From Candidatus Omnitrophota bacterium (lineage in GTDB: Bacteria > Omnitrophota > Gorgyraeia > B26-G9): a stretch of DNA of 34,441 nt. The position numbers and the translations under genes are program-made. The stretch covers positions 1 to 34,441 of the forward strand of contig JAHITE010000009.1 in assembly GCA_018817585.1 (NCBI GenBank). Reading direction: 5' to 3'. How positions within the stretch are numbered: position 1 is the stretch's first letter; each line of letters opens with the position of its first letter. The notes beneath the pieces are model-generated. The model did no database searches, had not been told where the DNA came from, and saw nothing but the letters and a program-made list of their open reading frames with translations. Shown one piece after another: positions 613-16,064 of this stretch.

Positions 613-1332
613 CTATTTTCCCCGCAGAGGGTACTTGCCGCAGGAAAACTTTTCGCCTTCCGGACAATATTTAAGCTCTTCGCACTTTGCTCCGGCATTT
701 TTAAAAATACAAGGCAGTTTTTCCTGAGCCATGGCCAGCATTTGATTGGCTAAAGCGCGGATTTCCCACTGAGCGCGGATACAACAGCGATGTTTAAAAA
801 AATGCAGCAATTCCCGGCAGTTCATAGTCAAAACAATTTTAGTTTCCGCGGCCTGAGGCAAAACAAAACGCGCGTCCTGATTTGCCTGTTCACCAGTCTT
901 GCCCTTTTGCTTAAATCTGGATAACAGCTTATTATAGCTTAACTGAATATCCCGCATTGTCTGGATAAATTCTGCCTTAAGTTCCGAATCTGTTTCTATG
1001 GAAGGCGGAACAATATATTCAAAATTAGATTCCTGAACATAACGCTGGCTTTGCTGCGAATAGCTGGCCATCCGATGTCTAACTAATTGATGGGTAAGCG
1101 CCCGGGAAACCCCTTCAACCGCAAAGGTAAATTTTACATGTTCCAAAGGACTGTCATGGCCTGAAGCAACAACTTTGCGCACAAACGCTGTCTTATCCGC
1201 TAATGAAATATTATTGTTGAAAATATCTCCGGCAAACTGCTGGCTATAACACTGCCTACAGGCAGCATAAATAACTGAAATCGCGTCCGTAGTTGATTCT
1301 AAAAGCTGCACATTTAGCTTTACCTGTCCCAC
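613..1332 (-). CDS. thyX: Flavin-dependent thymidylate synthase ThyX
   Basis: ThyX methylates dUMP to dTMP using methylenetetrahydrofolate and FAD/NADPH, replacing ThyA. The 239-residue length fits the family. The ThyX signature RHRMASYSQQSQRY is at residues 85-98, giving RHR, Ser90, Ser95 and Arg97; the FAD-side motif GHDSPLEH is at 58-65; the RELLHFF...AQWEIR region of the dUMP/FAD site is near 173-192. The start is GTG 1332-1330, preceded by AGGAG six bases upstream. A Cys-rich C-terminal tail (CEELKYCPEG..C) could bind a metal or be disordered. It follows the GGDEF/HD-GYP gene by 34 bases on the same strand. A second, tandem ThyX-like protein lies at 14538-16064, but this one has every catalytic residue and is presumably the working enzyme. 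Confidence 0.95.
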   Translation of the reverse strand: MGQVKLNVQLLESTTDAISVIYAACRQCYSQQFAGDIFNNNISLADKTAFVRKVVASGHDSPLEHVKFTFAVEGVSRALTHQLVRHRMASYSQQSQRYVQESNFEYIVPPSIETDSELKAEFIQTMRDIQLSYNKLLSRFKQKGKTGEQANQDARFVLPQAAETKIVLTMNCRELLHFFKHRCCIRAQWEIRALANQMLAMAQEKLPCIFKNAGAKCEELKYCPEGEKFSCGKYPLRGK

Positions 1333-11469: not shown

Positions 11470-11841
11470 TTAAAGCATATCATCCAATTGATCCCCGCGA
11501 ATCAAAGCCAGGATCGCGGCCTGGGGAACAATAATGTATTTCGCGTTTTCATATTCAATTTCCACTGCCGAACTGCGCAAGAAAATCGCCCGATCATTTA
11601 CCTTTGCCTGTAATGGTAAATACTGAGTTTTATCTTCAGTTTTTTTTCTCCACGGCTCATCACTTATATCCTGCGGTTCAGGCACCGGAATCCCCGGACC
11701 TACTTTAATTATTAAACCGCTCTGCACCTTTTCTTTTTCATATGCTCCCTGGGGAAGATATAATCCGGAATTGGTCATATCTCTCGAGCTATCCGGCTTT
11801 ATCAAAACCCGGTCACCAATAATAATCAGTTCTCTTGCCAT
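11470..11841 (-). CDS. Orphan GroES-like co-chaperonin paralogue
   Basis: The 123-residue product aligns with the GroES fold: IIGDRVLIKPD at the start, GLIIKVGPG in the middle, DRAIFLRSSAVEIEYENAKYIIVPQAAILALI at the end. It is longer than true GroES (about 95 residues) because of an insert, about residues 52-75 (PVPEPQDISDEPW and following), where GroES has its compact roof region. The mobile-loop region reads SRDMTNSGLYLPQGAYEKEK rather than the usual E..T..GI.LP, so GroEL binding is doubtful. No groEL is adjacent. Similar longer GroES-family proteins occur in other bacteria without known function. The ribosome site AGGA precedes ATG 11841. It sits between the MscS gene and the MBL-fold gene. 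Confidence 0.8.
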   Translation of the reverse strand: MARELIIIGDRVLIKPDSSRDMTNSGLYLPQGAYEKEKVQSGLIIKVGPGIPVPEPQDISDEPWRKKTEDKTQYLPLQAKVNDRAIFLRSSAVEIEYENAKYIIVPQAAILALIRGDQLDDML

Positions 11842-14537: not shown

Positions 14538-16064
14538 TTATTTAATCTTTTCCTGAATTATTTCCCTTGCTCCAGGAAGACTTAATTCAACTATTTTTGG
14601 ATTTATGCCAAATATATTTTTATATATTTCATTGTACTTATCTTTACCGCCAATGCAGGCAAACACAAAAGGCATTACTTTTTTAGCTTGAGCAGCCATA
14701 GAGCGGGAAACATTCTGAATATCCCATTGAGCATGCGCGTCTTCACGTAATCGGGAAATATGATACATTTCGCGGGCATTCACCCGAATCATAATCCGTT
14801 TTCTATGGGCATTAGTCAGAATATACGGAGCGGCCAAAGGTATTTCCTGCTTAATAGCGGAATACACTTGATTGGTTTTATCCACAATATCCTGAAAGAA
14901 ATCATCCATATTTATATCTTTAATAGACTGGGGGATAGTAATCCCCAGACTTGGGTCATAGCTTTGCGCGGTAATTGTCGACATGCGATGGCGCTTGAGC
15001 TGCCCAAAACAAGCAGATGATAAAACAATATCAAAAGTGAGATTTACATACTCAAATTCACGAAGCATGGAATCATAAAACTGCATATTCTGCCAAGCGG
15101 CTTTAAATATTTTTTTAACATCCAATTCCGGTAAATCATCAACTATCTGCCGGCATTGCGAATATGAATAATTTGATGCCGAATGAAGCAAAGCCGCGGA
15201 CACAATCGCGTCGCCGCATTTTGTAAAATCAACTAATTTAACAAGATCAATATCGTAAAAAGTTTTTTTCGTTGCTGCTGACAAAAGGGCATCAGCAATA
15301 ACCTTAAGATCAGGATATGTTTTCTGGTCACGATCATTTGCTTGGTGAAAGATTACAATAGAAGGCGCAACCTCAGAAACCTGATCATATAGCATTTTTC
15401 CCAAGGATTTAATTTCATCCAAAGGATGCGACGCGAACCTTCTTAATAAAAGCTCTAAATTTCTGGCATTAATCGTTAAGCCTACCTGTGACTCAGCAGC
15501 CAAACTAGTAATATAACGCGCATCCTCTTTTGCCCACCCCTCAAGCAAATTATGATTTTTAGGATCCAAAGCTAATTCAGCATTTTGCTGAAACACATGT
15601 TTCTTAAGTTTATCATATAACTCAAAATACGCTTTATTCTGCGCTGAAATCATATCCCGGAACATTCCTTCAAATTTAGTTCCCTGGATTTCCACAGGAA
15701 CAACAATATCATCTTGCAAAGTTATATAACGCTGCGACTTCTCAGTATAAGAACATAATCTGAATTTTTCTAATTCTTCCATGGCAAAACGAGAAACTCC
15801 CAGTATATCAAAATTAAATACCGCGTGCTCTGCCACAGAATGATGCCCCATTTTAAATATAATTGTAGAGTTTGATTTTCTTGATTTTTCCACTTCCTGC
15901 CGGGCTGATTGACGAATTTCATTAATCGCCCGCGGATCTCTACTAATCCGAGCGTATGCCGCTGATAATACTTCAGGGGTAATATCATCACGCTTACCCA
16001 GTTTTGCTTCCATCTCTTGCAAAACAGAAGCATCAACATTAAACCCAGCTAAATAAACTTTCAT
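14538..16064 (-). CDS. Tandem-duplicated ThyX-like protein with split signature motifs
   Basis: A 508-residue protein made of two ThyX-fold halves, about 45-235 and 270-470. The N half has GHHSVAEH (73-80), equal to the FAD-side GH..EH of ThyX, and KFRLCSYTEKSQRY (100-113), which keeps the S....S.R(Y) part of the ThyX signature but not RHR. The C half lacks GH..EH (REFEYVNL instead) but has RHR at 358-360 with the Ser/Arg part degraded to TITAQSYD. It also keeps REMYHISRLREDAHAQWDI (431-449), like the Arg-rich dUMP site of true ThyX, which the N half has lost. Together the halves could assemble one composite site. Canonical ThyX is present at 613-1332, so the role is unknown. Family relatives are usually just annotated as thymidylate synthase. 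It abuts the SGNH gene. Confidence 0.85.
   Translation of the reverse strand: MKVYLAGFNVDASVLQEMEAKLGKRDDITPEVLSAAYARISRDPRAINEIRQSARQEVEKSRKSNSTIIFKMGHHSVAEHAVFNFDILGVSRFAMEELEKFRLCSYTEKSQRYITLQDDIVVPVEIQGTKFEGMFRDMISAQNKAYFELYDKLKKHVFQQNAELALDPKNHNLLEGWAKEDARYITSLAAESQVGLTINARNLELLLRRFASHPLDEIKSLGKMLYDQVSEVAPSIVIFHQANDRDQKTYPDLKVIADALLSAATKKTFYDIDLVKLVDFTKCGDAIVSAALLHSASNYSYSQCRQIVDDLPELDVKKIFKAAWQNMQFYDSMLREFEYVNLTFDIVLSSACFGQLKRHRMSTITAQSYDPSLGITIPQSIKDINMDDFFQDIVDKTNQVYSAIKQEIPLAAPYILTNAHRKRIMIRVNAREMYHISRLREDAHAQWDIQNVSRSMAAQAKKVMPFVFACIGGKDKYNEIYKNIFGINPKIVELSLPGAREIIQEKIK

Follow-up and report, generated by a model that had tools for sequence, protein, structure and literature searches.

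Can a protein made of two ThyX-like halves, neither with a complete active-site signature, be a working flavin-dependent thymidylate synthase? The question is raised by a 508-residue tandem protein encoded in the window, the whole 34,441-nucleotide stretch analysed here (contig JAHITE010000009.1 of Candidatus Omnitrophota bacterium assembly GCA_018817585.1). The first-pass annotation had read this protein as two ThyX-fold halves that keep complementary parts of the active site and could together build a composite one, and had taken its coexistence with a canonical ThyX as a hint that its substrate may be a different nucleotide or a flavin. The genome (2.64 Mb in 125 contigs, 92% complete) does contain such a canonical protein; by PF02511 searches it has these two ThyX proteins and no others, and no ThyA was detected in it.

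The tandem open reading frame consists of two ThyX domains in one chain (Table 1). PF02511 matches each half separately, the N half at 119.8 bits and the C half at 83.6, where the cut-off is 24.8; the first matched stretch covers residues 30-235 and the second lies in the C half. The whole protein scores 143.4 bits against TIGR02170, above the cut-off of 87.9. An AlphaFold2 model of the full-length protein, built from a 50-sequence alignment, has a pLDDT of 83.5 and a pTM of 0.82, and the order of the main strands and helices is the same in its two halves. All 50 PDB matches listed by Foldseek for this model are ThyX structures. The C half modelled alone (pLDDT 89.3) also matches ThyX in every listed case, with a best E-value of 3.8e-11 and TM-scores up to 0.64/0.73 against T. 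maritima ThyX. The prediction for the monomer, which had been proposed as a check, thus bears out the claim that the halves have the ThyX fold in common.

Table 1. Features of the tandem ThyX locus. Positions are those of the window; residue equivalents in brackets use T. maritima ThyX numbering, and invariance refers to 82 aligned tandem sequences.
Feature	Position	Strand	Basis
Tandem ThyX-like protein, 508 aa	14538..16064	-	ORF with an ATG start, read from 16064 to 14538
N half, residues 1-253, ThyX domain	15306..16064	-	PF02511, alignments
C half, residues 262-508, ThyX domain	14541..15281	-	PF02511, structural model, Foldseek
GHHSVAEH, residues 73-80 (H53...E58 H59)	15825..15848	-	H74, E79, H80 invariant
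KFR, residues 100-102, in place of RHR (R78/H79 lost, R80 kept)	15759..15767	-	Alignments
SYTEKSQRY, residues 105-113 (E86/S88/R90/Y91 loop)	15726..15752	-	T107-Y113 invariant
QLKRHR, residues 355-360 (Q75 and RHR)	14985..15002	-	Q355, K357, R358, H359, R360 invariant
R423...R431...R440...HAQW, residues 423-447 (R147, R165, R174, AQW)	14724..14798	-	82-sequence alignment
Canonical single-domain ThyX, 239 aa, 13 kb from the tandem	613..1332	-	TIGR02170, 192.6 bits; RHRMASYSQQSQRY intact

The motifs named in the first-pass annotation all lie where it had placed them: GHHSVAEH, KFR and SYTEKSQRY in the N half, and RHR (residues 358-360) and the segment from R431 to HAQWDI, which extends to residue 449, in the C half. 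When the halves are aligned to canonical ThyX, the N halves keep H53 (18 of 18), E58, S88, R90 and Y91; they mostly have Glu for Q75, Lys for R78, Phe for H79 and Gln for R147, and the AQW segment is absent. The C halves keep Q75 (17 of 18), R78, H79, R80, R147 (17 of 18), R174 and AQW, and are without H53, S88, R90 and the loop motif at positions 86-91. Pooled, the two halves supply every catalytic and dUMP residue: H53, S88, R90 and Y91 come from the N half, and Q75, R78, H79, R147 and R174 from the C half. Neither has the contiguous single-domain signature of RHR followed by S.RY (S88/R90/Y91), because the N half reads KFR...SQRY and the C half has RHR without S.RY, and we therefore file the tandem as a ThyX variant rather than as a canonical member of the family. 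An RHRx7S pattern is formally present in the C half by way of S368, but we rejected it because this Ser is kept in only 10 of the 82 sequences. The complementary split described in the annotation is real, although less clean than described: in the N half an Arg that had been missed (R209) still aligns with R174, the N163/R165 pair is kept in both halves (as N199/R201 in the N half), and by alignment E58 and Y91 are still Glu and Tyr in the C half. On the alignment, the loss in the N half is confined to Q75, R78, H79, R147 and the AQW segment.

How two such halves might make one site can be seen from published structures. T. maritima ThyX has four active sites, each formed where three monomers meet, and H53, which hydrogen-bonds to Y91, comes from monomer 3 (PMC11940539). 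In the structure of PBCV-1 ThyX, Gln75 and Arg182 (which we equate with R174) are contributed by monomer A and Ser88/Gln89 by monomer B (PMC3498832). When the tandem sequences are compared with these structures, the alignment supports a division of the retained residues by donor subunit, with the first donor's set in the C half and the sets of the second and third donors in the N half.

We consider it likely that the tandem protein is a flavin-dependent thymidylate synthase, derived from an internally duplicated gene, whose specialised halves form obligate composite sites and carry out the ordinary ThyX reaction. From the published structures and the alignment, we infer the following quaternary arrangement, site geometry and reaction. 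A ThyX gene would have been duplicated internally and its two halves would then have specialised, so that two polypeptides come together as a pseudo-tetramer with two halves of each kind. In every working site the flavin- and dUMP-activating residues (the equivalents of Q75, RHR, R147 and R174) would come from a C half, the substrate loop (equivalent to S88-R90-Y91) from one N half, and the His that stacks on folate and flavin (H53) from the second N half, since at a site with a C half as first donor both other donors can be N halves. Given the donor-wise division, 222 symmetry would leave two complete and two blank sites per pseudo-tetramer, and each half could then drop the residues required in the blank ones alone. 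The reaction would most likely be dUMP + CH2THF + NAD(P)H -> dTMP. What speaks against this account is the N half's Arg at R174 and intact N163/R165 pair: judged by alignment, the degenerate site is not fully stripped. The two degenerate sites, each with an N half on the flavin side and a C half on the loop side, might have been retained to do something else, for example to sense nucleotides or to bind a second ligand, with R102 (R80), N199, R201 and R209 forming part of the site and the enzyme being an asymmetric, allosterically controlled synthase; we think this elaboration unlikely.

A different substrate (a nucleotide or a flavin) to be methylated or reduced, the suggestion drawn from the coexisting canonical ThyX, would leave the fold and composite site in place and assign dTMP synthesis to the canonical enzyme. 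The window genome and a few other carriers do have both proteins, and the N-half residues K100-F101 and the Glu at Q75 are themselves conserved. Coexistence is, however, the exception. Of 50 genomes with the tandem, two also encode a canonical ThyX, one has a 132-residue fragment and the remaining 47 give no additional PF02511 match; searches with PF00303 found two strong ThyA proteins and six weak matches. Even when every genome with any further PF02511 or PF00303 match is left out, weak ones included, there remain 40 of the 50 carriers in which neither a second ThyX nor a ThyA-type match was detected. Most carriers are incomplete metagenome-assembled genomes, and the 40 include the complete chromosomes CP070684 (L042) and CP070807 (L049). 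A methanogen-type ThyA model added only weak matches. The 50 carriers yielded no convincing thymidine kinase: the matches in 14 of them are weak (E-values of 3e-5 to 8e-4), mostly to frames of about 360 residues, and are probably P-loop (RecA-like) proteins. If the tandem acted on something else, these 40 genomes would have no known source of dTMP. All the dUMP-contacting residues, moreover, occur once per pair of halves. We therefore rejected another substrate as the main reading and regard it as very unlikely.

The wider genome content fits the same picture. Dihydrofolate reductase is present in only three of the 50 carriers, two of which are the genomes with a strong ThyA, a rarity expected of ThyX users. 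In the phylum, PF02511 matches occur in 105 of 286 genomes, as a canonical single domain, as the window protein's tandem family (family A) or as a second tandem family (family B, below). In 25 of the 35 phylum carriers of known completeness, which partly overlap the set of 50, the only PF02511 matches are the two in the tandem and there is no ThyA; among 13 family B genomes no ThyA match was found. Read most simply, the tandem is the cell's dTMP-making ThyX, and because it is the sole thymidylate synthase found in many bacteria, it is probably a working one. It is not always the sole enzyme, given the two carriers with a strong ThyA and the few with a canonical ThyX, and its role is less certain in the window genome, which is one of the latter. 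Five Aminicenantes or Acidobacteriota carriers give weak ThyA matches. One of these matches, on the Aminicenantes chromosome CP070750 (L137:965-1933, minus strand), is a 323-residue relative of methanogen-type ThyA in a genome that also has the tandem; it scores 114.9 bits against TIGR03283, below the cut-off of 174.55, and the matches in the other four carriers are of about the same size.

Relatives of family A are widespread. A scan of genome contigs with a single query protein gave 348 matches, and the best 80 of these 348 are full-length or nearly full-length tandems with 51-88% identity in the best segment. Their record titles name Omnitrophota, Elusimicrobia, Aminicenantes, Acidobacteriota, Auribacterota, WOR-1, Fibrobacterota, Latescibacterota and others, labels that come from metagenome-assembled genomes, some of them possibly misbinned. 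The closest named relatives among the matches listed are Omnitrophota genomes of this kind. The complementary residue set varies little or not at all among 82 aligned members, holds equally in an alignment of 50 members with 52-88% identity, and the split is intact in relatives at 38-43% identity. In the 82 sequences the invariant N-half positions are G73-H74-H75-S76, A78-E79-H80-A81, R92, E96, R102-L103 and T107-E108-K109-S110-Q111-R112-Y113, and those of the C half are Q355, K357-R358-H359-R360, Q367, Y369, H420, R423, R431, R438 and R440; D442, Q446 and W447 are each present in 81 of the 82. The two-domain form, for which a search across genomes had been suggested, is thus found in many phyla, and the retained residues are conserved among its homologues. 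Five contigs called viral in the IMG/VR listing (L139-L143; 40-470 kb) also carry family A, with 38-59% identity and the split intact. Across the Omnitrophota loci that we read there are no common neighbours; in Aminicenantes only, purN/purL/purQ and tyrS lie near the gene.

Between the window gene and a relative from the same genus, dN/dS is 0.06/0.72 (approximately 0.09) in the N half and 0.07/0.71 (approximately 0.10) in the C half. Both halves are under purifying selection, so neither is decaying, and the word "decayed" in the first-pass annotation was misleading; on conservation and dN/dS we rejected a decaying pseudogene. The lack of a complete single-chain signature in either half might still be taken to mean that the protein is a catalytically dead or regulatory paralogue of ThyX, but we find this highly improbable for a protein whose catalytic residues are invariant across many phyla, whose dN/dS is near 0.1, which is usually the only thymidylate synthase found, and which is carried by large contigs listed as viral.

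Family A is not the only tandem ThyX. In the same phylum, family B (L016, L020, L025, L124-L132) comprises proteins of about 530 residues. All 12 have GHHTT.QH and SEQVSQR[YF] in the N half, with HxH replacing RHR, and DSQDQRHRM with the R147/R174 equivalents and no loop in the C half. The polarity of retained residues between the N and C halves is the same as in family A, whereas identity to family A is only 23-28% over the matched part, and family B differs from it by the HxH and a C-terminal CPEG....CG. This C-terminal motif reads CPEGDRFCG, and in the three loci read the gene adjoins an aminopeptidase-P-like gene. Chlamydial ThyX, reportedly studied by Griffin et al. in 2005, is also long, and presumably family B resembles it. 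A third diverged tandem ThyX occurs in the human faecal phage record MT835736.1 (L145:2935-4299), which is unannotated; its N half has EFR...SRRY and its C half has RHR and RAQWEI, again with the same polarity. The composite site proposed for complementary halves has therefore gained support: the residues divide by donor subunit, are fixed across phyla, and recur in two diverged tandem groups. Trees of the half-domains have very long branches, and AU tests (p = 0.45, 0.30 and 0.29) are compatible both with a single shared duplication and with separate events. That each half has a modified site of its own, as R80, N163, R165 and the Arg at R174 in both halves of family A might suggest, is a reading we hold to be most improbable, because it leaves unexplained why no single half, whether of family A, family B or the phage protein, has both the H53/S88/R90 set and the R78-side set in full.

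Compared with canonical ThyX (FDTS), such as T. maritima TM0449 and M. tuberculosis ThyX, the tandem is alike in the fold of each half, in its pooled motif residues, in its expected FAD/dUMP/folate chemistry and in co-occurring with the absence of ThyA and DHFR. It differs in having two domains in a chain of about 500 residues, in having no half with the full RHR...S.RY, and in the two sites predicted per assembly against four in the ThyX tetramer. Duplication of the ThyX domain was already known: Valas and Bourne 2009 (PMC3224940) noted it, as uncharacterised, in Chloroflexi. We liken that protein to the tandem by its description only, and the passages of that paper on the duplication make no mention of a site shared out in complementary parts. 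We found no account of such a split in the open-access literature, where this paper was the only one found on the fusion.

With composite sites as proposed, the tandem would be a natural and widespread example of how gene fusion turns a multi-subunit active site into an obligately composite one, and this in an enzyme that is essential and belongs to a drug-target family. Each residue of the ThyX site could then be probed as a single copy, free of the four-fold symmetry of the homotetramer. Judged by the distribution of the tandem, thymine in many uncultured lineages (Omnitrophota, Aminicenantes, Elusimicrobia and others) may be made by an uncharacterised form of ThyX, which annotation that requires the single-chain RHR signature would misread as defective.

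Two further observations concern other proteins. A 260-residue open reading frame in another genome (L134; G296:C97) is a single-domain ThyX-like protein with RHR and with S-T-H-Y in place of S.RY (RHRAGFAYSQESTHY), so that R90 is replaced by His. In the window, positions 11470-11841 of the minus strand encode a 123-residue GroES-like protein that scores below all GroES equivalog cut-offs and matches in two separate stretches, which suggests an insertion.
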